This document shows positions 1-10,953 of a DNA stretch of 10,953 nt, piece by piece. Made by a program: the position numbers and the translations under genes. The stretch comes from a bacterium (lineage in GTDB: Bacteria > SM23-31 > JAUVVT01): contig JAUWXV010000121.1 of the NCBI GenBank assembly GCA_030616165.1, positions 1 through 10,953 on the forward strand, read 5' to 3'. A model generated the notes under the pieces. The model worked only from the letters and a program-made list of their open reading frames with translations, was not told the origin of the DNA and made no database searches. Numbering within the stretch: the first letter of the stretch is position 1; every line of letters begins with the position of its first letter.

Positions 1-2142
1 GATACTGTTGTATTTAAAAAAGATGATAATGAAGTTTTACGATTGGGTAATTTTAGAGTATTTGACAAGGATGAGAAGATTATAAGTGTTAGTAGTGTTG
101 TCAGTGGTAAGAATAAAGTAATATATAAATTCAATAGGACAGATAAATCAAAAGCAGTAGTAATTGACCCGACTTGGAGTTGGGCACCCACTCCGACTAC
201 GGGAAAGGACAAAGAAATCAGACAAGGATTGAGTGGATCACAAAACGCTCAAAATATTATGGTAGCCTATTATTCATCAGTTGAAAGTAGGGGTTTATTT
301 CAGTTTGTGGGTATTAAAGATAGTTTAGATTCTATAGAAGTAGATTCCGCATTCTTAATTGGGCATCAAACTAACCATACAATAGTGGGAACACCGAGTA
401 TTTATTGTAGGGCAATAGCCGAATCTTGGAATATAACAGACGAGTGGGCAAACCAACCTAGCACCCGAAGTCCTTATTCGGAAGATACTTTAAGTTCAGC
501 AAATTATTCGGTCGATGGCAATAATTTTTACTGGAGATGGGAAATAACTGATATTATGGAAACGGTTTTTGAAGATGATTCAACTGATTATGGTTTAATG
601 TTTTTTACGTCAAATTTGGCAAGTGACAACAAGGTGAGAATTTATTCAAGCAATTATAATGATACGGTTTCATATAGACCGAAGATAGTGATAGAATACA
701 TATCTAAAAAATATTTGAGTTTAAATTTGGTTGCCATTTCAGATAGTTCGATTGAATGCACAATAGATACTTCTGTAGCAGGATATGTTGACAGTCTCGT
801 AATAATGCGCAGCATCGATTCATCTGCTATGGGCGATGTTTTTTATTCGCTGAAGGATACGCTTGATACGCTTACCGTTAATACAAAGTATTCACTAATT
901 GCAGGTGGTTATCTCGGAGATACATTGAAATATTACAGTGCTCCTGATAGTATATATACTCTTGCTTTGATTCCTGACACCCCATTTGTTCAGAGCTGGA
1001 GTGCAACAAGCATAAGAATTAAACCGGAAAGAGGAGAAAATCCGGCGGATGCAAAACTTGCGATATATGATTCAACTTTACAGAAGTATCTAAATTCATC
1101 CGGTGATACTTTATCATCAGCAGTCTGGCAGACAGAAGCCCAGTGGGATACTCTTGTAGCGATAAAGCGAGTCCCCAATACTGAATATATATTGGGTGTT
1201 TTTGCTAAAAATGAAGATGACAGCATCACGGCAATTTCTGATTTGAAGAGCTGCAAAACCAACAGCATAATTGATTCTATTAAAGTATATGCAATTACGG
1301 ACAGTTCTTATATAATATATTTTGGCGGTGACTCGGTATATTCTCCTTTTGAGGGTTATTTTGCTATAGATGATTCTGATAGTTCAACTGTATCTGATAC
1401 TATCGATGTATTTTCATACGGGATAAAATCGATTTTTACTAATAAACCTTTTTCGCTTAACACACTTAATCGGTTTCGGATATTGAGAATCGAGAATCAA
1501 GCTGACAGTCTTTATTATTCGGATGCAGACTCTGCATATACTTTGACAGCCACTCCCACTCCACCTGTTATTTCCGGAACTACAGATTCAACATTCTTAC
1601 TTCAATTTGATGATGTCAGTGGAAATCCTGACACAATAAAGTATGCTGTATTTGACAGTATGTATTCATTATATCGCGATACCACAGGTGATACAACAGA
1701 AACAATCGTATTTGCAACTGATGTTGATTGGGATAACGTAATAATAAAAACTTATACACCAAATCTTTTTGTAGCAATAGGAATTTTTGGAAAGAATGAC
1801 GATTCAGTATTTAGTGCAGTCTCTTCGGATACAACATGGACCTGGGCTGCTGTTCCGGGAACTACGATGGTGAGTGTGATTGATTCAACGAGACTGTTGA
1901 TTAATATAGATCCTAATAAAAATCCTGAATATACATATTTTGCTGTTGAGGATAGTATTTCTGAGAAATTTATTGATATAAATACAGGGATATTGAGGTC
2001 ATCAGGTGTAGAAGTCGATTCTACCTGGGCATTCGGGAGATATTCTGATTGGGGTGGAAGTGAAGGTTTTATTGTAAAAGTTACACCAAAAACAAATTAT
2101 TATTTCAGGGCATATTCAAAAGATGGTAATACAAATCCATAG
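1..2142 (+). CDS. Large β-repeat protein with DNRLRE-like domain and FN3-like repeats (5' partial)
   Basis: The frame is open from base 1 to the TAG at 2140-2142, so the gene starts left of the window; the TTG at 43 is unlikely to be the true start because coding-like sequence precedes it. At least 713 residues are present. Bases ~253-705 encode a β-rich domain resembling the DNRLRE family of cell-surface and phage-fibre proteins (N-IMVAYYSS..., RAIAESWN-TDEW, Y-PKIVIEY). It is followed by about five ~95-residue FN3-like repeats (~706-975, 976-1260, 1261-1560, 1561-1854, 1855-2142). The repeats are joined by linkers of similar form: IYTLALIPDTP, AYTLTATPTPP, TWTWAAVPGTT. A matching TWSWAPTPT at 172-198 suggests another repeat before the DNRLRE-like domain. 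The protein is rich in Asp, Ser and Thr and poor in Cys. It could be a tail-fibre or adhesin component, or a host secreted protein next to the phage block. The fold is inferred from pattern only; function is not established. Confidence 0.72.
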   Translation, partial: DTVVFKKDDNEVLRLGNFRVFDKDEKIISVSSVVSGKNKVIYKFNRTDKSKAVVIDPTWSWAPTPTTGKDKEIRQGLSGSQNAQNIMVAYYSSVESRGLFQFVGIKDSLDSIEVDSAFLIGHQTNHTIVGTPSIYCRAIAESWNITDEWANQPSTRSPYSEDTLSSANYSVDGNNFYWRWEITDIMETVFEDDSTDYGLMFFTSNLASDNKVRIYSSNYNDTVSYRPKIVIEYISKKYLSLNLVAISDSSIECTIDTSVAGYVDSLVIMRSIDSSAMGDVFYSLKDTLDTLTVNTKYSLIAGGYLGDTLKYYSAPDSIYTLALIPDTPFVQSWSATSIRIKPERGENPADAKLAIYDSTLQKYLNSSGDTLSSAVWQTEAQWDTLVAIKRVPNTEYILGVFAKNEDDSITAISDLKSCKTNSIIDSIKVYAITDSSYIIYFGGDSVYSPFEGYFAIDDSDSSTVSDTIDVFSYGIKSIFTNKPFSLNTLNRFRILRIENQADSLYYSDADSAYTLTATPTPPVISGTTDSTFLLQFDDVSGNPDTIKYAVFDSMYSLYRDTTGDTTETIVFATDVDWDNVIIKTYTPNLFVAIGIFGKNDDSVFSAVSSDTTWTWAAVPGTTMVSVIDSTRLLINIDPNKNPEYTYFAVEDSISEKFIDINTGILRSSGVEVDSTWAFGRYSDWGGSEGFIVKVTPKTNYYFRAYSKDGNTNP

Positions 2143-2147
2143 TGTTG

Positions 2148-2172
2148 GTAGGAAGGATTACATCCTTCCTAC
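2148..2172. repeat. Palindrome with 10-bp stem
   Basis: A perfect inverted repeat: GTAGGAAGGA, loop TTACA, TCCTTCCTAC. It begins six bases after the stop of the β-repeat gene. It shares the GTAGGA start with the 6514-6576 and 9384-9408 palindromes and may be a variant of that dispersed family. There is no T-run after it, so it is not a classic intrinsic terminator. Confidence 0.75.
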
Positions 2173-2183
2173 ATTGTTAAGAT

Positions 2184-2215
2184 TATATTCAAAGAATGGT
2201 AACACTAATTCATAA
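2184..2215 (+). pseudogene. Ghost copy of the 3' end of the β-repeat gene
   Basis: This 32-nt stretch matches 2111-2142, the last codons and stop of the β-repeat ORF, at 25 of 32 positions with no gap. Translated in its own frame it reads YSKNGNTNS-stop against YSKDGNTNP-stop. Four of the substitutions that fall within whole codons are synonymous third-position or stop-codon changes (AAA/AAG, AAT/AAC, ACA/ACT, TAG/TAA), so the copy appears to have diverged while coding. It is out of frame with the upstream gene and separated from it by the 2148-2172 palindrome. It is best read as the remnant of another FN3-like repeat end or of a paralogous gene. Confidence 0.6.
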
Positions 2216-2228
2216 TTAGAGGTAAAAA

Positions 2229-3212
2229 ATGCCGTTAAGAGGACCAGGACCAGGAAAATTAATAACATCACCGATTGCTTCACCAATCGTAAGTTTTTAT
2301 GCGGTTGTTTCAGTAAAAAAGTGGTTTACTACAATTAGAGAAGTATCGGATTTATATTTCGGGATAGTTGGGAGTTCTGATGTTCAGAATGAAGAGGTGC
2401 TGATGCTTGGGAATAGAGAAAACTACCTGAAAAATGGAAATATTCAAGTTGATTCGGAGAGGATTAAAAAGGTTAACACAGTGGTTCCGCCGGATACGAT
2501 TACGTTTTCAACTTCTAATAATTGGGAAAATTTCTCTAATTCAGATATAGTAAGGGGTTCTGTAAAAGTTTTCGATTCAGGAGAGACAAAGGAGTTTATT
2601 GGGGGCGTTGAATTTGAGATAAACTATAAAGATGGAAAAATAAAGAGGCTTCAGGCAGCAGGAACTCCCGGGGGAGCATCTTCATCTGGTGCGGGGGTTA
2701 ATAGTTTCATTGCTGAATTTTTTGCCGCTGTCAATGTTTCTCAGGTTGTTAAGGTTTATTATGATTGTTATACTGATTATGTTAAGGGGACTGATTATCA
2801 GGTAAATTACAAACTAGGGACATTATCCAGATTAGCAGATGGGAATATACAAAATGGTGAGCGGGTATTCGTCGATTATCGGGTTATTTCAAACATAAGT
2901 GACCAGATTATAGTAAAAGTGATAAATCAGGCACACAAATTCATAATGAGTAGAATAGACGAGAATTTAGAAGGGACAGAGAATGAAGACATGAAATATG
3001 CAGAGACTTACTTTGCTTTGGGACTGCTTGCGAATTCAAGTGCATCTGATATGGTGGAAGCAAAAAGAGATAGTAAAGCATCAAGTGCAGCAGAAACTAT
3101 GCTGAAAATTGCATCTGTATATGAAGAGAAAGCCTGGGAGTTTCTTGCGCCTTATAACATAATTAGTTCTCCAAGGAGAGCAGGAGCTAAGATAAGAAAG
3201 AATCTGGCGTAA
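2229..3212 (+). CDS. Unrecognised phage structural-type protein with internal β-repeat
   Basis: A 327-residue protein starting at ATG 2229, with AGAGG at 2218-2222 as ribosome binding site. No signal peptide is obvious. The N-terminus is Gly/Pro-rich (MPLRGPGPGK). Two similar β-segments lie at residues ~111-141 (VKVFDSGETKEFIGG...NYKDGKIKRL) and ~173-202 (VKVYYDCYTDYVKGTDY...NYKLGTLSRL), separated by a Gly/Ser/Ala linker (TPGGASSSGAG, ~146-156). This 'xGxDYxVNYxxGxIxRL' pattern is common in phage virion proteins. The last ~100 residues look helical and charged. The gene lies directly upstream of the terminase genes, so a neck, adaptor or baseplate-type role is plausible, but that is inferred from position. 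I do not recognise the family, and it does not look like an HK97-type capsid protein. Confidence 0.8.
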   Translation: MPLRGPGPGKLITSPIASPIVSFYAVVSVKKWFTTIREVSDLYFGIVGSSDVQNEEVLMLGNRENYLKNGNIQVDSERIKKVNTVVPPDTITFSTSNNWENFSNSDIVRGSVKVFDSGETKEFIGGVEFEINYKDGKIKRLQAAGTPGGASSSGAGVNSFIAEFFAAVNVSQVVKVYYDCYTDYVKGTDYQVNYKLGTLSRLADGNIQNGERVFVDYRVISNISDQIIVKVINQAHKFIMSRIDENLEGTENEDMKYAETYFALGLLANSSASDMVEAKRDSKASSAAETMLKIASVYEEKAWEFLAPYNIISSPRRAGAKIRKNLA

Positions 3213-3257
3213 ATTTATATCTTTCTCAATTTTATGAATTTATAAAAAGTCAAGATT

Positions 3258-3656
3258 ATGGAGTTTAAAAATCTTACACTAAAAAAGAGAAAGTTTATCG
3301 AATTTTTAAAAAATAAAAATTCAGAAGATGACAAAAATGAAAAGAGGGTAAGCGAGATTGCAGAAGAGATAGGGATAAGTGAAAAGACTTATTACAGGTG
3401 GAAAAGAGACCCTGAACTTTTAAATATTGCTTATCATGAACATCTCAAAAGACTTGGGGCATGGCTGCCGAAGGTTTTAATCACCCTTGCTGAAAAGGCT
3501 GAAAAGGGGGATATAAGAGCGATAAAACTTTTGCTTGAACAATTTAATGTGTATAAAGATGACGAGAAGATTTCTGATGAATTGACTGCAGATAAAGTAA
3601 TCGACCTGATTAGAAAGTCAAAAAGTGATAAGAAAAAATTTGAAGAAACAGAGTAA
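3258..3656 (+). CDS. terS: Terminase small subunit-like protein (phBC6A51-type HTH)
   Basis: A 132-residue protein. After an LTLKKRKFIEFL opening, a helix-turn-helix occupies residues ~31-53 (VSEIAEEIGISEKTYYRWKR). A helical region follows (LITLAEKAEKGDIRAIKLLLEQF, ~74-96), which is the usual layout of phBC6A51-type HTH proteins encoded beside large terminases. Small terminase subunits recognise the packaging site in phage DNA and regulate the large-subunit motor. The tail is Lys/Asp/Glu-rich. The gene ends four bases before the preferred ATG of the large terminase, suggesting translational coupling. The start at 3258 has only a weak upstream purine stretch. Assignment rests on the HTH, the length and the adjacent large terminase. 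Confidence 0.85.
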   Translation: MEFKNLTLKKRKFIEFLKNKNSEDDKNEKRVSEIAEEIGISEKTYYRWKRDPELLNIAYHEHLKRLGAWLPKVLITLAEKAEKGDIRAIKLLLEQFNVYKDDEKISDELTADKVIDLIRKSKSDKKKFEETE

Positions 3657-3660
3657 ATCT

Positions 3661-5019
3661 ATGAAAGTTGAAGATTTTGAAAATATGGAAAGATGCATTG
3701 AAAGTCCGTGGTATTTTATGACAAACTTTGTTTATACTTTGGAGCGGGAGGAAGGGATTAAAAAGTATCCGGATTACAGTTATTTGAAAGATTTCGTGGA
3801 CTCTATGGAGAAAGAAAGGCTGATAATAGTATTAAAATCGAGACAGATGTTGATTAGTTGGACGGTAATGGGATTTGTATTGTGGAATTGTATATTCAGC
3901 GATTCATCAGATAATCTTGTTATTTCAAAAAGAGAAGATGAAGCAATAGATTTATTGTTTCGTGCAAAGTTTGTATACAATAATCTTCCTGATTTCATGA
4001 AGGTCTCTGTGGGTTATGATAACAAGAATATGCTTGAGTTTAAGGGGCAAAAATCTCGCATAATCTCACTTCCTTCTTCGCCGGATATCGGGAGAAGTTA
4101 TTCTCCAAAGAGAATTTTCTGGGATGAGATGGCTTTTACTCCTTTTGATGAGGAGGTATTTCAATCATTACAACCCGGTCTTGATGGAGGCGGTTCTTTT
4201 ATTGGTGTTTCTTCTTCCAATGGGATTAATAACAAACACGGCAAACTCTGTATGAATTACAAAGAAGATGGGTTTAAGAGGATTGATATACATTATTCGT
4301 TACATCCATTGAAAGATGAAAACTGGCTTAAAGAGGCGAAAAAGGGTATAAGTATCGAGAGGTGGAATCAGGAACAGGAGCTTTCACTGGAAACAGCGGG
4401 AAGAAGGGTTTATGAGCGATTCTCTGAAAGGATCCATGTAATCGATTGGGAATATAATCCTGTTCTGCCTGTTTATCGTGCAATTGACTTCGGGTATCAT
4501 ACGCCGGCAGTTCTATGGATTCAGGTAACTGCCGACGATGTTGTTATTGTTTTCAAGGAGTGGGTGGGAGAAAATAATACTATTAGTGAGATGGTTGAGC
4601 AAATAAAAAGAGGAGACAGGGAGATCGGGGTTAATGAGGATGCAGTTGAAATAACATATTGTGATCCGTCGGGAAAGGCTGCAAGCGATGTCGGTATCTC
4701 ATCTGTTGATTATCTGGAGAACAATGGTATTAAAGTTAATTATAGGGCAAGTTCTCTTCTTGCAGGGATTGATTTGGTTAGGGAAAAGTTGATGGATGCG
4801 TCTGGAAAAGTTTTTCTTAAGGTATCAAGGAATTGTAAAAGGGTTATAAGTGATTTCAGGCAGTATTCAAAAAAGTATAATAGTGAAGAGCCAAAAAAGG
4901 ACAATATATCTGACCATACTATGGATGCTTTAAGATATTTTATTGTGAATTGTTTTGATAGGGATGTAAAAATGTTTGTTCCTGCAAAAGTAGCAGGTGT
5001 CGACCTACTTTCTTTGTAA
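3661..5019 (+). CDS. terL: Terminase large subunit (ATPase/nuclease)
   Basis: DNA-packaging motor subunit: an N-terminal ATPase drives DNA translocation into the prohead and a C-terminal RNase H-like nuclease cuts concatemers. From ATG 3661 it has 452 residues. Visible motifs are the degenerate Walker A/adenine-binding KSRQMLISWT (59-68) and Walker B IFWDEM (152-157, D155/E156). Nuclease acidic positions are AIDFG (D276), YCDPSG (D335) and DHTMDALRY (D418/D422) near the C-terminus. A GTG at 3625 would add 12 residues and overlap the small subunit by 32 nt; I prefer ATG 3661 because it follows that stop by four bases and sits behind GAG at 3651-3653. The last codons CTT TCT TTG TAA lie inside the palindrome at 5004-5029, so the repeat supplies the C-terminal LSL and the stop. 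All catalytic classes look intact. Confidence 0.93.
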   Translation: MKVEDFENMERCIESPWYFMTNFVYTLEREEGIKKYPDYSYLKDFVDSMEKERLIIVLKSRQMLISWTVMGFVLWNCIFSDSSDNLVISKREDEAIDLLFRAKFVYNNLPDFMKVSVGYDNKNMLEFKGQKSRIISLPSSPDIGRSYSPKRIFWDEMAFTPFDEEVFQSLQPGLDGGGSFIGVSSSNGINNKHGKLCMNYKEDGFKRIDIHYSLHPLKDENWLKEAKKGISIERWNQEQELSLETAGRRVYERFSERIHVIDWEYNPVLPVYRAIDFGYHTPAVLWIQVTADDVVIVFKEWVGENNTISEMVEQIKRGDREIGVNEDAVEITYCDPSGKAASDVGISSVDYLENNGIKVNYRASSLLAGIDLVREKLMDASGKVFLKVSRNCKRVISDFRQYSKKYNSEEPKKDNISDHTMDALRYFIVNCFDRDVKMFVPAKVAGVDLLSL

Positions 5020-5029
5020 AGAAAGTAGG
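5004..5029. repeat. Palindrome P1, forward copy 1
   Basis: A 12-bp perfect stem (CCTACTTTCTTT / AAAGAAAGTAGG) with a GT loop. It overlaps the end of the large terminase gene, whose TAA is at 5017-5019. The same CTTTCTTT-(GT/AC)-AAAGAAAG core occurs at 8966-8989, 9701-9718 and 9817-9842; the loop bases GT or AC tell the orientation. Confidence 0.9.
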
Positions 5030-5030
5030 A

Positions 5031-5079
5031 TCCGCCTCTGGCGGAAAAGAAACTTTAAACTTATCCCGAACTTCGGGAT
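5031..5079. repeat. Two short palindromes inside the 5004-5120 composite element
   Basis: 5031-5045 is TCCGCC-TCT-GGCGGA and 5063-5079 is ATCCCGAA-C-TTCGGGAT. They lie between palindrome P1 (5004-5029) and palindrome P4 (5097-5120). A similar GC-rich hairpin (CCCGCC-TAT-GGCGGG) sits at 9028-9042 in the next composite element. Confidence 0.75.
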
Positions 5080-5096
5080 ATAAGTAAGTTTTCTTT

Positions 5097-5120
5097 CTAC
5101 TTCTTTTTCAAAAGAAGTAG
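5097..5120. repeat. Palindrome P4, reverse copy
   Basis: An 11-bp perfect stem (CTACTTCTTTT / AAAAGAAGTAG) with a TC loop. Related copies with a GA loop, in opposite orientation, are at 8990-9015 and 9723-9746. It closes the element that starts at the large-terminase stop; the purine-rich ribosome binding site of the portal gene follows within about 10 bases. Confidence 0.85.
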
Positions 5121-5147
5121 CAAGGAAAGAGGAGAAAGGTTTTAAGA

Positions 5148-6380
5148 ATGGGAATTTTTAATAATTTATTTTTTCGTAAGAAACAATCTCTGTCACAGGA
5201 AGCAAAGATTGAAACGAGAAGAAGAAACATAAGATGGGAGAATCCGGCAAATTGGTTCAACTTTCATAAGCACACAAGAAGCGATTTTTATCGCTATGTA
5301 AGGGACAATATTCCTTTAATATCTGCATCTGTATGGGCATGGGTCAGACTCTGCTTTACGCCACAGCATTATGTAATTACTGGAACAGAGTCAGAAAAGA
5401 AAAGGGCTGAAGTTGTTCTTGATAGACTTGGAAAGCGCATTTTTGAAGGGATAAGTAGAAAGGACGGTGTAAAGAGTCTTCTGGAACTATTTTTTCTTGA
5501 GATATTCACAACGGGCAGATTTGCTGGCGAGATAGTACAATTAGCATCAGGCAGGGGTATAGACTATTTTCATACAATCGATTCTTATGAGATAATATGG
5601 GAGAAGAAGGGGAGATGGATTCCATATATAGAAAGGGATGGAAAGAAGATTTCCCTTGATGATGAGAGGTTTTTTTATTATGGATTGGGGGCGGATTTAA
5701 AGAATCCAGCCGGTGTATCGCCGATTTCTGCGATTCCATTTGTTGCGGAGATTGAGGAGAGGATGCTTGAAGATATGTCATTATATTCCCATAATGCTGG
5801 TGTGCCGAGGCTTCATATAAAGATTACCCCACCGGAGCCTATGAAAGGTGAAAGTCAGGCTAACTATGCGAAAAGGATAAATAGTTATTTTGACGAGACT
5901 GTCGAAAAATTTAAATATCTTGACCCTGATGATAATATTTTTACATGGTCTGATGTTGAGATAGATTTGGTGGGTGGGACCGGTGGGGTTCCATTTACAT
6001 GGAGATTGAACAGAGAACAGGTAATCGAAGATGTTATAACCGGTATGAGACTTTTTCCGTGGGTCGTAGGGAGAACACACGGGACAACTAAAAACTGGGT
6101 TCAGGCACAGTTTAATCTTCTGATGCAGGAAGTTGACAGCATTCAGGAAGAGGCTAAGGCTTTTGCTGACTGGTTAAGGAATACAGAACTTCAAATGCAG
6201 GGAATCGATGCAAAGTCGAGCAATATTTTTGCACCGAATCAAGACCCGTTTATACTTGAAAAGGCAAAATCAAATGCTATTATGTTTGATACTGTTGACA
6301 GGAAGGTTAAACGGGGGTATATCAGTAAGGATGATGGAGCAAAAGAACTTGGATATCATAAGGTATTTAAAAAGGACTGA
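5148..6380 (+). CDS. Phage portal protein
   Basis: A 410-residue protein; the portal is the dodecameric head vertex through which the terminase pumps DNA. Supporting features: the position immediately after the large terminase; an N-terminal basic stretch followed by DNIPLISASVWAWVRL (~53-68); the Gly/Pro-rich NPAGVSPISAIPFVAE (~186-201), which resembles the 'GxSPLxA' region of HK97-type portals; and the helical segment VITGMRLFPWVVG...TKNWVQAQFNLLMQEVD (~296-330), typical of the portal stem/clip boundary. ATG 5148 is preceded by GGAGAAAGG (5131-5139) at suitable spacing. It is somewhat shorter than many portals (often 400-550 residues) but appears complete. No Mu F-type gene follows. Confidence 0.82.
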   Translation: MGIFNNLFFRKKQSLSQEAKIETRRRNIRWENPANWFNFHKHTRSDFYRYVRDNIPLISASVWAWVRLCFTPQHYVITGTESEKKRAEVVLDRLGKRIFEGISRKDGVKSLLELFFLEIFTTGRFAGEIVQLASGRGIDYFHTIDSYEIIWEKKGRWIPYIERDGKKISLDDERFFYYGLGADLKNPAGVSPISAIPFVAEIEERMLEDMSLYSHNAGVPRLHIKITPPEPMKGESQANYAKRINSYFDETVEKFKYLDPDDNIFTWSDVEIDLVGGTGGVPFTWRLNREQVIEDVITGMRLFPWVVGRTHGTTKNWVQAQFNLLMQEVDSIQEEAKAFADWLRNTELQMQGIDAKSSNIFAPNQDPFILEKAKSNAIMFDTVDRKVKRGYISKDDGAKELGYHKVFKKD

Positions 6381-6513
6381 AATAATTAGATAATTTGTTT
6401 TTTGCGGGTTTGGTAAATCAAGCCCATATAAATATGGTGTTAAAATATTATTATTAATTGTAGGGATTAAATTTATCGAACCCAATCTTTAATTAAGACA
6501 ATAATAAGCAATA

Positions 6514-6576
6514 GACAGACAGGAATGTCTGTCCTACCGAAATTTTTTAGTAGTAGGTCAGACATTCTTGTCTGAC
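6514..6576. repeat. Inverted pair of GTAGGACAGACA palindromes
   Basis: Two hairpins lie head to head in the gap after the portal gene. 6514-6533 is GACAGACA-GGAA-TGTCTGTC; 6557-6576 is GTCAGACA-TTCT-TGTCTGAC. With flanking GTAGG bases, the reverse complement of the first (6514-6537) closely matches the second (6553-6576), so together they form a larger imperfect inverted repeat. A third copy is at 9384-9408. The rest of 6381-6597 shows nothing I can name. Confidence 0.85.
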
Positions 6577-6597
6577 AAACAATACAAGAGGTTTTAA

Positions 6598-6753
6598 ATG
6601 GAAGAAGAAGTTATTTTTTTAAAGTGTGATGATTGTGGAGAGTTGAACAGGATTGATATTAATGTGCCAGCACAAGGGTGTATTAAGTGTGGGAAGAAAA
6701 TTGTTACACCGCAAGGTGAAAAAAAGATAAAGTCAGCAGATAAAAAAGTGTAG
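6598..6753 (+). CDS. Small zinc-ribbon protein
   Basis: A 51-residue ORF beginning at ATG 6598 behind AAGAGG (6585-6590, six to seven bases upstream) and ending TAG at 6751-6753, 11 bases before the next start. It has two paired cysteine knuckles, CDDCGE near residue 10 and CIKCGKK near residue 30, in the CxxC-x14-20-CxxC pattern of zinc ribbons, followed by a basic lysine-rich tail. Small Com-like or zinc-ribbon proteins are common in phage head modules. The specific role is unknown; it could bind nucleic acid or one of the flanking head proteins. The good ribosome binding site and tight spacing support it being real. Confidence 0.75.
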   Translation: MEEEVIFLKCDDCGELNRIDINVPAQGCIKCGKKIVTPQGEKKIKSADKKV

Positions 6754-6764
6754 GAGAAAATGTT

Positions 6765-8960
6765 ATGAAGAAAATCTTGGGATATATACAGGGTAACATG
6801 AAAATGGAGACAATCGAAGCGACCAATGAAGATGCAGAGGTGATAAATTTACTTCTTAATCCGCCGATTGTTTCGGTGAAAAAAGAGGATATCTATGTGA
6901 GAAGGTGCAGGCTTGCTTCGGACGCTATTGATTATAGTTATGGTAAATTCAGGACTGAAAACCTTCCGAGGCTTTTGGAATTTGCTCAAGGTGTATCTCT
7001 ACTTATCGGTCACAGAAAGGATACTGCTGGTGTTGCAAGGTTTTTTGATGGCAGTATTGAACAGATTGATGATGTTTATAATCCATTTACACAAAAGAGT
7101 GAGAGAATTACATATATAGTTCCAAAGTTCTACTGGATGAAGAAACACAGCAGAGCAGAAGATTTACGTATAAATGTCGATGGTGGGATATATCATCAGG
7201 TTAGTTTAAGTTGGTGGTACAAGAAGGCAACCTGTGGAATCTGCGGGAAGGATATGAGGGATTGTGAACATATACCAGGCAGAAAATATAATAATATCCT
7301 TGCATTTTATTATTATGACAAGATTGGCGATGTGCTGGAGGGTTCAATCGTATATAAAGGGGGACAGCCTTATACCGGTTTTTATCTAAATAATGAATTA
7401 ACCGAGGGATTAGAAGAATGCAGAAAGATTTACAACGGATTTTCTTCTGATAAATGCGGTGGAAATATAAGAGTTTTTCGAGAGGATATTGTTAATTATC
7501 TGAAGCCGTTGAAAGGATGTGCATATATTGCAGGTAATATTGCCGATAAAGGTTATTCCGATGACAGAATTGATATAATAGTTGAAACTGCTAATAGAGA
7601 TGAAATTTTGGATTTACTTCCTTTGCCATTCAAAAATATGGTGGATTTTGTCGAGCCCAGTAAAAAAGGCAGTAAAATGATCAAAATGGAAGGCAGAACA
7701 AGTGATGATAATTCTGAATTCAGAGGAATTAAAGGGATAATCAAGAATGAAAATATTAACAATGAGTATTTTTCAAAGAAGAATTTTATTAGATTCACAG
7801 GTAAATACGTAATAGAGCCGCTTTATGAAGGGATACTTGTTCAGGTTCATAAGGATGAAAAGTCGGTAAAAATATTTGATACTTTCGGAAAAGAAATATC
7901 TAATAAATTACCAGATATAATTGAAGATGTCCGAAATTTTAATGAAAAGAACTTAATACTCGATGGTGTTCTTCTTGTTTATCACGGCAGGACAAGGTTT
8001 GGGCATAAGGAGGTTTGTGATATAATTTACAATAATAAAAATTTAGAAGGTTTGCGGCTGAGATTGAAGGTATTTGATTTTTTAAGATGCGGGAGTTTAG
8101 ATTCAACAGACATGATTTTTAAAACCAGACATGAGATACTTCCTGAGATTTTTTATGATACTAAAAATGTTCAGATTGTCAAGGCTCAATTTGTAGGAAG
8201 CCCTTCTGAAATTATTGCCAATATTGAAAAATATTCTACCAAGAATGGAGCGATAATTAAAGATGCCTACAGTAAATATTATGAGAAAAATAAATGGTTT
8301 AAATATAAAAAGATGTATGAAATAGATGCTAAAATCATTGACTGTAAAGTTACAGAAGAAGGCACTGAATATTTATGCGGTGTTATTGGTGCAAATGAAT
8401 TGAAAGTTATAGGTAATGTTTTTTCAAAAAAGATAGATGCAGATAAAGGAGATATTGTTAGAATAGAAGTAGAAGATGCAGAATTGGAAGATGATGAAAT
8501 AAAGTTGCATTCTCCGAAGATTATCGAGATAAGATATGATAAAAAATATCCCGACAATGTAAACGTTATTAAGAGAATTTCTGAAACAGAAAGAGATTCA
8601 GTGAATTCTGATGCGATGTGTGAATTTATGGTTTACGAATATAATGAAGAAAATGTGCGTTACTTTGAGTTGCTTATTCAGAATAATAGTGAAGCGGGAT
8701 TTGTGAAATTCAAAAGAAAGGGCGATTTTTTATTTAATAGGAATAGAATGAGTTTAACCGAATGCAGAGAATCGTTAGGGTGTATTCCTTCAGACAGCAA
8801 AATTTTAGATTACGGTTATGTCTTTGATTTTAAGGATTCAAATCATTTCAAGAAATTTTCACTTTTTGGAAGATTTGGTCAGGTTAAAGGAAATTTTATT
8901 GCAAGGGGAATATTGTATCAAGGGAGAAATTTGTTTTTGCTGTGGAAAGTCGATTTTTAA
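6765..8960 (+). CDS. Prohead protease-like domain fused to degenerate NTase, DNA ligase/OB and LigD-PE-like domains
   Basis: 731 residues; start ATG 6765 behind GGAG at 6753-6756. Residues ~40-205 resemble phage prohead proteases: a candidate catalytic His in LLIGHRKD (H83), Ser in YHQVSLSW (S147), a CGICGKDMRDCEH zinc knuckle (C157, C160, C167, H169) and DVLEGSIVYKGGQPYT. Residues ~250-275 (AGNIADKGYSDDRIDIIV) resemble a nucleotidyltransferase signature with the first acidic residue replaced (R268) and D270 kept. Residues ~340-525 follow ATP-dependent ligase order: motif I EPLYEGILVQVHK (Lys to L353, Arg to L358), motif III LILDGVL (Glu to V402), IIIa KVFDFL, IV NGAIIK (Glu to N494), V WFKYKK. 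An OB fold with LHSPKIIEIRYDK follows (~527-600). Residues ~621-731 align weakly with LigD phosphoesterase but lack its His/Asp/Arg set. The ligase is probably inactive. Role is inferred: head maturation plus DNA binding. Confidence 0.8.
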   Translation: MKKILGYIQGNMKMETIEATNEDAEVINLLLNPPIVSVKKEDIYVRRCRLASDAIDYSYGKFRTENLPRLLEFAQGVSLLIGHRKDTAGVARFFDGSIEQIDDVYNPFTQKSERITYIVPKFYWMKKHSRAEDLRINVDGGIYHQVSLSWWYKKATCGICGKDMRDCEHIPGRKYNNILAFYYYDKIGDVLEGSIVYKGGQPYTGFYLNNELTEGLEECRKIYNGFSSDKCGGNIRVFREDIVNYLKPLKGCAYIAGNIADKGYSDDRIDIIVETANRDEILDLLPLPFKNMVDFVEPSKKGSKMIKMEGRTSDDNSEFRGIKGIIKNENINNEYFSKKNFIRFTGKYVIEPLYEGILVQVHKDEKSVKIFDTFGKEISNKLPDIIEDVRNFNEKNLILDGVLLVYHGRTRFGHKEVCDIIYNNKNLEGLRLRLKVFDFLRCGSLDSTDMIFKTRHEILPEIFYDTKNVQIVKAQFVGSPSEIIANIEKYSTKNGAIIKDAYSKYYEKNKWFKYKKMYEIDAKIIDCKVTEEGTEYLCGVIGANELKVIGNVFSKKIDADKGDIVRIEVEDAELEDDEIKLHSPKIIEIRYDKKYPDNVNVIKRISETERDSVNSDAMCEFMVYEYNEENVRYFELLIQNNSEAGFVKFKRKGDFLFNRNRMSLTECRESLGCIPSDSKILDYGYVFDFKDSNHFKKFSLFGRFGQVKGNFIARGILYQGRNLFLLWKVDF

Positions 8961-8965
8961 ATAGT

Positions 8966-9042
8966 CCTACTTTCTTTGTAAAGAAAGTACTTACTTCTTT
9001 TGAAAAAGAAGTAAGCAATCCGAAGGACCCGCCTATGGCGGG
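8966..9042. repeat. Composite palindromic element (P1 forward, P4 forward, GC hairpin)
   Basis: Starts six bases after the stop of the 731-aa gene. Palindrome P1 with GT loop (stem 8968-8977/8980-8989) is followed directly by P4 (CTTACTTCTTTT 8990-9001 / AAAAGAAGTAAG 9004-9015) and a CCCGCC-TAT-GGCGGG hairpin (9028-9042). It occupies most of the gap 8961-9112. No T-run follows the hairpins in terminator position. Confidence 0.85.
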
Positions 9043-9112
9043 GAAAACTTACTTTTTTTACTGAGTATTTAGAGATTAATGAGAAATTATATCATAGATA
9101 TTAAAGCATATT

Positions 9113-9361
9113 ATGACGGATAATGAAAATGCATTATTAAAGAAAATATACGAAGTAGTCTTTCGTCTTGAGCAGTGGAAGGATGACCAGGAGACAAGCA
9201 TAAGGCAGTTCTGGGAGAAAGATTGGAAGGAGTTAAAGGATATTTTAAAAAATCACGAAAATAGAATCGTTAAAATTGAAAAGTGGCAGGCAATGAGTGT
9301 TGGGATTGCAATAGCATGTTCAACCTTTCTTGCAATTTTAATCAGAGTAATAAAATTTTAA
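9113..9361 (+). CDS. Small membrane protein, XhlA/holin-accessory-like
   Basis: 82 residues. An acidic/basic helical N-terminal two thirds likely forms a coiled coil (LLKKIYEVVFRLEQW ... DWKELKDILKNHENRIVKIEKWQ, ~8-59). One hydrophobic segment follows at ~60-79 (AMSVGIAIACSTFLAILIRVI) and the protein ends with a short basic tail. This coiled-coil plus C-terminal TM layout is that of XhlA/hemolysin-type phage lysis accessory proteins, and the SleB-type hydrolase lies downstream. ATG 9113 has no good ribosome binding site; a 14-codon ORF (9079-9123) overlaps the start and might couple translation, but evidence is weak. The family call is by architecture only. Confidence 0.7.
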   Translation: MTDNENALLKKIYEVVFRLEQWKDDQETSIRQFWEKDWKELKDILKNHENRIVKIEKWQAMSVGIAIACSTFLAILIRVIKF

Positions 9362-9383
9362 AACTATTGCATATATTTATTTA

Positions 9384-9408
9384 GTAGGACAGACATTCTT
9401 GTCTGTCC
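9384..9408. repeat. Palindrome of the GTAGGACAGACA family
   Basis: GGACAGACA-TTCT-TGTCTGTCC, a 9-bp perfect stem (9387-9395/9400-9408) preceded by GTA. It is nearly identical to the forward copy at 6553-6576. It lies in the gap between two small membrane-protein genes. Confidence 0.85.
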
Positions 9409-9454
9409 ATTTTATTCAAAATAACAAAATTTTAAAATCAGTATCGAGGTCATT

Positions 9455-9712
9455 ATGAAAGGAATTTTCACAAATATTGTATTCTCCGGTATGGGATTAT
9501 CTTTTTTTCTTTTGATATTATCCCGAATGATACCAAATGATAAGTTAAAAAAAGCGTCGGTAAAATTTGGCAGGATAATCAGTAAAACTGGAAGATCAAG
9601 GTTTGGTAAAAAGTTCTGGGAAGGACTTGAAAATTATATCGAAAACAGCCTATCGGTCATTTTTACCGGTTTAAAAGAGGGCTGGAACGAAGACGACACA
9701 CTTTCTTTGTAA
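9455..9712 (+). CDS. Small membrane protein ending in repeat-derived LSL
   Basis: 85 residues; start ATG 9455 behind GAGG (9446-9449). One N-terminal hydrophobic segment at ~7-25 (NIVFSGMGLSFFLLILSRM) is followed by a basic stretch and a helix-rich C-terminal part (KKFWEGLENYIENSLSVIFTGLKEGWNEDD). The pattern is of small phage proteins seen near lysis genes, but I do not recognise a named family. The last codons ACA CTT TCT TTG TAA lie in palindrome P1 (9701-9718), so the protein ends DTLSL exactly as the large terminase ends DLLSL. Likely a one-pass inner-membrane protein; whether it is a holin is not shown. Confidence 0.72.
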   Translation: MKGIFTNIVFSGMGLSFFLLILSRMIPNDKLKKASVKFGRIISKTGRSRFGKKFWEGLENYIENSLSVIFTGLKEGWNEDDTLSL

Positions 9713-9842
9713 AGAAAGCAATCTTCTTCTTTTGAAAAAGAAGAAGCAAGAAAACTTACTATTACTCCCTATTCCGTGCTTCGCACGGAATAGGGAGTAA
9801 GTAAAAAGTTTCTTTGCCTACTTTCTTTACAAAGAAAGTAGG
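9701..9842. repeat. Composite palindromic element (P1 forward, P4 forward, long hairpin, P1 reverse)
   Basis: P1 core CTTTCTTT-GT-AAAGAAAG (9701-9718) contains the upstream gene's stop. P4 (CTTCTTCTTTT / AAAAGAAGAAG, 9723-9746) follows. Then comes an 18-bp perfect hairpin with a TTC loop (9762-9779/9783-9800; TTACTCCCTATTCCGTGC arm). The element closes with P1 in reverse orientation (CCTACTTTCTTT-AC-AAAGAAAGTAGG, 9817-9842). It thus has inverted ends that are themselves hairpins. It spans the gap from the stop codon to ten or so bases before the SleB ribosome binding site. Confidence 0.88.
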
Positions 9843-9862
9843 TAGGAAAAGAGGGAGGAGAT

Positions 9863-10312
9863 ATGAAAAAGAGGGAGTATGATCAATGGCGTTCGATACT
9901 TTGGTCAGAGAGTGATGTACTTGTTCTTGCAAGAACGATATATGGTGAGGCAAGGGGAGAGGATGAGGAGACAAAGATAGCCGTTGCTAATGTAGTAATG
10001 AACAGGGCTAATGACCCTAAATGGTGGGGAAAGACGGTAAAAGAGGTATGTCTTGCAAGAAAGCAGTTTAGTTGTTTTAATTTTGAGGACCCAAACTTTG
10101 TGGAGTTAGTGAATGTTACCATAAAGAATAAAGTTTTTCAAGAATGTTTCGGGATTACATATTCTGTAATGAAGAAACTTTTACCTGATAATACGAATGG
10201 TGCGACGCATTATCATAATAAAGATATTGATACTCTCTGGGACGATAAGATGAGTATAGCACTTGAACTTAATAATCTTTTATTTTACAACGAAAAATCA
10301 TTAAAAATTTAG
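9863..10312 (+). CDS. SleB-family cell wall hydrolase (endolysin)
   Basis: 149 residues; ATG 9863 behind a strong purine block GAGGGAGGAG (9851-9860). The Hydrolase_2/SleB signature is clear: LARTIYGEARGEDEETKIAVANVVMNR (~22-48), with the presumed catalytic Glu in YGEARGE (E29); KTVKEVCLARKQFSCF (~57-72); and near the C-terminus ATHYHNK (~114-120). These enzymes cleave peptidoglycan glycan strands. No signal peptide or SPOR/LysM domain is present, so export would depend on a holin-type partner, consistent with the three small membrane proteins around it. In this context it is most likely the phage lysin; a spore-cortex role is unlikely. The TAG stop overlaps the next gene's AGGAGG. Confidence 0.88.
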   Translation: MKKREYDQWRSILWSESDVLVLARTIYGEARGEDEETKIAVANVVMNRANDPKWWGKTVKEVCLARKQFSCFNFEDPNFVELVNVTIKNKVFQECFGITYSVMKKLLPDNTNGATHYHNKDIDTLWDDKMSIALELNNLLFYNEKSLKI

Positions 10313-10316
10313 GAGG
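10311..10316 (+). promoter_or_regulatory. Consensus ribosome binding site overlapping the upstream stop
   Basis: AGGAGG begins inside the TAG stop of the SleB gene (10310-10312) and lies seven bases before ATG 10324. The overlap implies that the downstream membrane protein is made by translational coupling with the hydrolase. Confidence 0.8.
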
Positions 10317-10323
10317 AAGTAAA

Positions 10324-10581
10324 ATGGAATGGATATTACAAAACAATGTAATAGCATACATAATTACTGCGATTCTCGGTGCGTTTGGTTCAAAGTTCTT
10401 CTTTTCAAAAAAGATAGAGTTATTAAGCCATGTGATGATTGAGATTACCCAACTGCTTACAGTGCTTGTTGATTCATTAAAGCCTGATGCAGATGGAAAG
10501 ACGAGAATAACAACAGAAGAGGCAGAGAGAATCAGGAAAGAGATTATGGATGTGCTTAAACTTTTTAGACCGAAGAAGTAA
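10324..10581 (+). CDS. Small one-pass membrane protein, holin-like
   Basis: 85 residues. A hydrophobic N-terminal segment (NNVIAYIITAILGAFGSKFFF, ~7-27) is followed by a cytoplasmic-looking amphipathic helix (IELLSHVMIEITQLLTVLVDSLKP, ~31-54) and a charged C-terminal EF-like but unproven segment (DADGKTRITTEEAERIRKEIMDVLKLF). It is coupled to the SleB lysin gene through the overlapping AGGAGG. The pattern is common for small phage proteins in lysis cassettes, and a holin or spanin-like accessory role is possible. The DADGKTRIT stretch resembles a Ca-binding loop only superficially. Last gene of the block; a hairpin follows 10 bases later. Confidence 0.75.
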   Translation: MEWILQNNVIAYIITAILGAFGSKFFFSKKIELLSHVMIEITQLLTVLVDSLKPDADGKTRITTEEAERIRKEIMDVLKLFRPKK

Positions 10582-10591
10582 AGTTCTATAA

Positions 10592-10616
10592 TTCCCTGCC
10601 CGTAAAGGGCAGGGAA
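10592..10616 (+). terminator. Probable terminator hairpin
   Basis: A 10-bp perfect GC-rich stem (TTCCCTGCCC, loop GTAAA, GGGCAGGGAA) lies ten bases after the last stop of the block. No clean T-run follows (AATACCTCTTATTT), so termination strength is uncertain. It is placed where the operon would be expected to end. Confidence 0.5.
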
Positions 10617-10654
10617 AATACCTCTTATTTACGATTGTAAAAATTATCATTTAA

Positions 10655-10810
10655 AGAGGCTGATGAAAAAGTCAAATAAATAGTTAATTTAGGATGAGAT
10701 TGCCACGTCCCGAGTACTCGGGACTCGCAATGATAATAAACTTACATGTCATTACGAGGAGCGAAGCGACGCCTGCGCAGGCGTTGTAATCTACTTTTTC
10801 AGCAGGATCT
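10655..10810. mobile_element. MITE-like inverted-repeat element
   Basis: The ends are imperfect inverted repeats: 10655-10672 (AGAGGCTGATGAAAAAGT) matches the reverse complement of 10793-10810 at 15 of 18 positions. Inside are two oppositely oriented copies of a unit of the form 'AGATT(G/A)C(C/A)ACG ... CTCG(C/T)AATGA', each centred on a perfect palindrome: GTCCCGAGTACTCGGGAC (10707-10724) and ACGCCTGCGCAGGCGT (10769-10784). The left half has about 22 extra bases (from 10673) absent from the right half. There is no ORF. The GTCATTACGAGGAGCGAAGCGAC string is the kind of short dispersed repeat found in many bacterial chromosomes. Confidence 0.75.
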
Positions 10811-10866
10811 ATAAAAATTAAAAGTGTAGTTTATTTCACAATTATTTCTTTGTTGAGAAATTTTTT

Positions 10867-10875
10867 TGTTATAAT
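10867..10875 (+). promoter_or_regulatory. Possible extended -10 promoter reading out of the window
   Basis: TGTTATAAT gives a consensus -10 with an extended TG (10867-10875). The upstream T-rich stretch has only a weak -35 candidate near 10847-10852. If real, it would start transcription near 10882, outside the phage block and toward the right edge. No ORF begins before the window ends. Confidence 0.35.
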
Positions 10876-10953
10876 TTAACGCAATGTATTAGATAATGGC
10901 AGTGATATTATATTAAATTTAAAAAAATAAAAAATAATAATTATTTTTAATAA

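Follow-up and report, generated by a model that had tools for sequence, protein, structure and literature searches.

Why would a head-maturation protease be made on the same polypeptide as the folds of a DNA end-joining kit, and does such a kit still work? The question is raised by P0001, a protein encoded in a stretch of DNA from a KSB1-type bacterium (contig C76, 10,953 bases; hereafter the window) that is phage-like throughout. The genes run in the order terminase small subunit, terminase large subunit, portal, P0001, small ORFs, SleB-type hydrolase, and a last small ORF whose product looks membrane-anchored by eye (Table 1). P0001 is one uninterrupted ORF of 731 codons downstream of the terminase subunits and portal. 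Positions 1-2142 of the window encode a large secreted-type protein, conserved in this head, packaging and lysis island, with parts up to 43% identical to its counterparts in loci L012 and L014. It has no match in a Pfam search and could be a fibre.

The original prediction of a head protease fused to end-joining folds is borne out for the protease, nucleotidyltransferase-like and ligase parts. The fusion is conserved across independent assemblies, being present in two other KSB1-type genomes (L025 and L026), and this rules out an assembly error as its source. Fold matches of the N-terminus to T4 gp21 and of the ligase part to LIG1 likewise rule out a single ordinary phage fold. The domain matches of P0001 are not attributable to chance because of their E-values, of the 282 stop-free codons of the ligase part (expected from composition, 5e-13), and of the orthologues in independent assemblies. 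Matches to VWD, HTH, mRNA_cap_C and further Pfam families, all sub-threshold, were judged chance.

Table 1. Features of P0001 (residue numbers of the protein) and neighbouring genes, in window coordinates.
Feature	Coordinates	Strand	Basis or remark
P0001, whole 731-aa ORF	6765..8960	+	Predicted prohead protease with pseudo end-joining arm; fusion also in L025, L026
Prohead protease domain (predicted), residues 16-207	6810..7385	+	phrog_16951, T4 gp21 fold match
His83, candidate catalytic residue	7011..7013	+	Invariant in 15 homologues; role by analogy with assemblin-fold proteases
Ser147, candidate nucleophile	7203..7205	+	Invariant in 15 homologues; role by analogy
CxxC...CxH knuckle (C157, C160, C167, H169)	7233..7271	+	Invariant in 15 homologues; putative zinc knuckle
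Nucleotidyltransferase-like domain, residues 235-310, degenerate signature	7467..7694	+	Alignment with viral copies; pLDDT about 77-94
ATP-dependent DNA ligase core fold, residues 331-517	7755..8315	+	PF01068; model vs human LIG1
Leu353 in place of motif I lysine	7821..7823	+	Alignment with viral and cellular ligases
OB fold, residues 518-611	8316..8597	+	Best fold matches are ligase OB domains; part of LIG1 match
C-terminal tail, residues 612-731, possible decayed LigD-type phosphoesterase	8598..8957	+	Weak; low pLDDT
gp2229, conserved head-module gene	2229..3212	+	Syntenic homologues in most related loci
Terminase small subunit	3258..3656	+	phrog_2538 E 6e-12
Terminase large subunit	3625..5019	+	phrog_2 E 1e-27
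Portal protein	5148..6380	+	phrog_3753 E 3e-30
SleB-type cell-wall hydrolase, lysis gene	9863..10312	+	PF07486 E 5e-17; phrog_938 endolysin E 2e-22

The protease domain

The N-terminus of P0001 is a predicted prohead protease, as judged from its modelled fold, its residues and its genomic place. Residues 16-207 match phrog_16951 (E 4e-17), a family of unknown function. The predicted fold of residues 15-199 has T4 gp21 as its top match (Z 9.1 over 135 residues) and also gives hits to herpesvirus proteases (Z about 7). Among the tblastn matches of this part are proteins annotated as head proteases in Flavonifractor phage Cormatin and Enterococcus phage fHoEfm07. His83 and Ser147 were assigned by conservation among 15 homologues rather than by superposition on the gp21 residues. 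The early reading of this region as a prohead protease-like domain with candidate His and Ser and a CxxC...CxH knuckle agrees with the family match, with the gp21 fold and with the invariance of these residues in the 15 homologues. P0001 shares with T4 gp21 and the herpesvirus assemblin-fold proteases the fold, the place beside the portal gene, and the conserved His and Ser; it differs from them by the Cys/His knuckle within the domain and by a 500-residue arm of enzyme folds.

An end-joining arm stripped of catalytic residues

The largest part of the arm has a ligase fold. PF01068 matches residues 341-515 (E 8.3e-16) and phmmer with P0001 gives archaeal DNA ligases (E 4e-6). A first model, with only three sequences covering the ligase core, left that core unfolded. 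The second, of residues 233-731, was built with viral relatives and, because these are ligases, is not wholly independent and possibly biased to the ligase fold; it matches human LIG1 with Z 21.6 over 280 residues, LIG4 with Z 19.6 and T4 ligase with Z 19.4 (best Foldseek E 3e-17), and its pLDDT is mostly ~90 over the nucleotidyltransferase-like, ligase and OB parts. The OB domain matched ligase OB domains already in the first model, which was built without the viral relatives.

The full ligase core announced for this protein is present as a fold, OB domain included, but not as chemistry: in the window copy the Lys of motif I and the Glu of both motif IIIa and motif IV are replaced. Every viral and cellular ligase in the comparison has the motif I Lys; the three fused copies instead have Leu (window), His (L025) and Gln (L026). 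At the position of the motif IIIa Glu the window has Val and L026 has Gly, with Glu retained in L025. The motif IV Lys is retained in the window and is Thr in L025 and L026; the K-x-K of motif V, also retained in the window, is lost in both. With these lysines the window arm may bind nucleotide or DNA. The arm has in common with ATP-dependent DNA ligases (archaeal type, LIG1, T4 ligase) the nucleotidyltransferase core and OB fold over 280 residues; it differs from them by the missing nucleophilic Lys and other motif residues, and its clade has an OB end of its own.

Ahead of the ligase, the nucleotidyltransferase-like pattern noticed originally is found near residues 252-275, but the catalytic G-S...D-x-D signature is not intact and the segment has no Pfam match, NTP_transf_2 included. 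The signature is degenerate in different ways: GN...RID in the window, GD...SID in L025, GD...LID in L026 and GE...KIK in the shorter protein of L024. It is intact, as GS/GG...D-x-D, in the viral proteins L084, L065, L108 and that of ANMV-1, and sub-threshold matches to NTP_transf_2 are seen in three of four viral counterparts (E 0.02-0.07). Among the fold matches listed for the arm model, which are filled by ligases, there is no nucleotidyltransferase.

A LigD phosphoesterase segment, also proposed from the sequence, is not recovered in P0001. The LigD_N search gives no match, and when the window tail is compared with phosphoesterase profiles in hhalign the probability reaches 16% at most, aligning only the last strands, which is not significant. 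In the viral proteins, the excised segment of L084 matches PF13298 (E 3.7e-4), and the viral phosphoesterase segments match the canonical LigD phosphoesterase in profile-profile comparison (E 5.9e-6, probability 85%). Since viral relatives of the module have the domain, it is plausible that the window tail is a decayed LigD-type phosphoesterase. The phosphoesterase segments, misaligned onto the ligase, are left out of alignment A9.

The protease is found in five of the six genomes of the window's phylum in the collection. Three carry the full arm: the window, L025 ("bacterium SM23_31", 826 aa) and L026 (KSB1 bacterium B69T1L10, 801 aa). In the L024 protein (422 aa) the arm is shorter and lacks the ligase core, and the L027 protein (247 aa) is a protease without arm; both genomes still have the head module. 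In the Caldithrix phylum the protease is stand-alone, of about 200-260 aa, in 17 of the 17 genomes where it is readable. By their sequences, the recognisable enzyme domains of the arm have lost catalytic residues in every fused copy, differently in each, and the protease residues are kept. Identity between L025 and L026 is 38.5% in the ligase region and 78.8% in the protease. Differences between their arms amount to 0.49, 0.36 and 0.65 at the first, second and third codon positions; because changes concentrate at third positions, the arm seems to be still selected as a protein, weakly.

Intact kits in viral relatives

The more important find is a set of living viral relatives, of which the window copy is a dead variant. 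They came to light when viral contigs were scanned with an alignment of cellular ligases, which yielded proteins matching P0001 in both halves; single-protein scans of the same contigs with P0001 and P0002 gave no matches, and tblastn against phages and plasmids gave part-length matches only, except for ANMV-1. L084 encodes a 1229-aa protein composed of protease, long low-complexity linker, zinc ribbon, ligase, OB domain, nucleotidyltransferase and LigD-type phosphoesterase, with ligase motifs and nucleotidyltransferase signature intact. Its contig also encodes a protein that resembles, by eye, the capsid protein of the island. L082 has protease, linker, intact ligase and OB domain in a protein cut by the contig end, on a contig with a portal gene (phrog_3753), where inspection also points to a terminase fragment and a gp2229 homologue. 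The chains are longer in L065 (172-5613) and L108 (6579-11909), where DNA methylases, nucleotidyltransferase, intact ligase, OB domain and phosphoesterase are followed by a C-terminal XkdF head protease (PF14550, E 3e-28 and 8e-30, respectively). In ANMV-1, a virus from methane-seep archaea, the kit is a separate 866-aa protein encoded directly after the portal gene. The portal there is the product annotated as "MutT-like phage hydrolase" in KP703175 (L002:1913-3193; PF06381 E 3e-22, phrog_146 E 2e-30). A further kit fusion lies on G180:C166 (L171:2-3100, minus strand), in an ORF open at both contig ends. It has a peptidase-like N-terminus (by eye), a nucleotidyltransferase, a ligase whose motif I is intact and an end resembling a phosphoesterase, and shares 36% identity over 537 aa with the ANMV-1 protein. 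Just upstream of the L108 chain is a gene for a 1216-aa MuF-like protein with a HipA-like match.

Window-type ligases, kit ligases and the viral L068 and L077 form one clade in the ligase tree (support 100/99); within it, L082 and L084 are placed with the window-type ligases at a support, 84/88, that is not strong. In the protease tree, where long branches are present, a single clade holding every N-terminal fused protease is rejected (p 0.016), so a direct origin of the window fusion from an L084-like one is uncertain. From the sequences, the kit appears to have been joined to head proteases at least twice, with a gp21-like protease N-terminal in one case and an XkdF protease C-terminal in the other; modules may also have been swapped between proteins or dropped. 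This repeated association argues for a functional link. The intact viral proteins suggest that certain viruses load DNA-joining enzymes into the head as fusions to its protease. In the living relatives, fusion to the maturation protease would bring the kit inside the procapsid, where the protease would cut it loose as the head matures; the kit would then exit together with the DNA, trim the DNA ends and join them in the new cell. This points to a virus route for bringing DNA-joining enzymes in with the genome.

The kit of the living relatives could instead act in the producing cell, for example by sealing nicks before or during packaging, the protease only positioning it; this explanation, which overlaps with the others, we regard as rather doubtful. 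Phage ligases commonly act on replicating DNA and the genes concerned belong to a head module, adjoining terminase and portal. However, the two unrelated arrangements with head proteases, the methylase chains and the MuF protein ahead of the L108 chain fit loading into the capsid better, and PMC5512222 considers chains of this type to be packaged and injected.

That paper describes polyvalent proteins, enzyme chains of phages with portal and terminase genes, having C-terminal assemblin-like peptidases thought to process the chains during virion assembly. The precedent invoked at the outset suits L065 and L108 well, both being chains of this kind that end in an XkdF head protease. P0001 too has several effector domains in one polypeptide beside portal and terminase, with enzymes inactive by residue. 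It departs from the published cases by its N-terminal protease and dead enzymes, and PMC5512222 mentions no DNA ligase or LigD-type domain. Bacterial LigD, with 3'-phosphoesterase and polymerase domains, likewise combines ligase and phosphoesterase; the viral kit differs by a small nucleotidyltransferase, with no polymerase domain seen, and by its fusion to a head protease, and the phosphoesterase of the window is only a candidate. End joining by phages itself has a known precedent in phage Ku working with host end joining. In PMC4351075 (citing Pitcher 2006), Ku of phage Corndog serves an end joining that closes the incoming genome; this phage use of end joining would be shared with the present kits, and is described there without a link to head genes or a maturation protease. 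Both the peptidase processing of polyvalent chains and the end joining of Corndog agree with the delivery proposed here. The open-licence literature searched holds no report of a head protease-ligase fusion or of a Calditrichota gene transfer agent. Two families, phrog_1530 ("DNA methyltransferase") and phrog_14859 ("RNA ligase"), match the XkdF-type part near the C-termini of L065 and L108, and so seem to include more fusions of enzymes to head proteases.

The dead arm and its head island

For P0001 itself we favour, with moderate confidence, a predicted working prohead protease whose arm is a catalytically dead descendant of a viral end-joining kit, now a structural part of the procapsid interior. 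Trimming and joining of DNA ends can hardly be expected of the arm in this lineage. In the KSB1-type copies, nucleotidyltransferase and ligase chemistry would be gone with the protease conserved and the arm held in frame under weak selection at the protein level, leaving the arm as a folded, possibly DNA-contacting or space-filling, component of that interior. They would illustrate the fate of such a kit in a seemingly domesticated particle.

Two other readings appear unlikely to us. The arm might still bind DNA ends and hold or protect the packaged end near the portal, as first imagined; the ligase and OB folds, the two sets of lysines kept in motifs IV and V of the window and the vicinity of terminase and portal genes speak for it, but the same lysines are lost in L025 and L026, so the contact residues are not conserved in the family, and L024 and L027 have the head module without the ligase core or without any arm. 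It is similarly improbable that the arm is a relic drifting without present role in a domesticated element: the low conservation of the ligase region relative to the protease and the shortening or absence of the arm in L024 and L027 would agree with decay, but about 500 codons stay open in three divergent genomes, third codon positions vary most, and the predicted fold is intact.

The reading of the arm as a retained structural shell is to be seen together with the island that encodes it (loci L044-L045, L028-L036, genomes G098-G138, window 1-10953, L173). In the Caldithrix phylum the portal gene is found in 33 of 39 genomes, mostly as one full-length stop-free copy; the exceptions are two adjacent part-matches in three genomes and a contig-edge fragment in one. 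Portal and rpoB distances correlate there with r = 0.905 (25 genomes, p 0.0001). The island of the Caldithrix MAG L033/G098 is flanked by host-like genes, for proteins with the Por_Secre_tail sorting domain and an acetyltransferase. No integrase, replication or tail genes were seen in the island stretches read. The head, packaging and lysis island appears from these sequences to follow host phylogeny in the Caldithrix phylum and resembles a gene transfer agent; it looks domesticated and vertically inherited. It shares with gene transfer agents (PMC9662315) endogenised caudoviricete-derived head genes, vertical inheritance and a lysis gene, and differs from them in being known from genes alone, with no tail genes recognised, and in belonging to other host phyla. 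The phylum-wide island may represent a new group of gene transfer agents.

Loss of the kit chemistry could be explained in such a setting, because a gene transfer agent would carry host fragments that need no circularisation. We propose, tentatively, that viruses of several lineages bring a complete kit of nucleotidyltransferase, ligase and LigD-type phosphoesterase into the head by way of the maturation protease, which cuts it free, and that, in the gene transfer agent-like island of KSB1-type bacteria, where circularisation would not be needed, the kit has lost its chemistry and its shell persists as a component inside the head.

Host-like flanks are also seen in the window's own genome, where the capsid gene is found on a separate contig (L173, G000:C238), beside a hydrolase-like gene (by eye). 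Near this capsid end of the island, L173:6132-6778 encodes a small nucleotidyltransferase/HEPN-like pair of toxin-antitoxin type (by eye). In a genome of another phylum (L015, G012:C17), homologues of the protease, portal and gp2229 (3241-4164, 8069-9397 and 13784-14605) are scattered among host-like genes.
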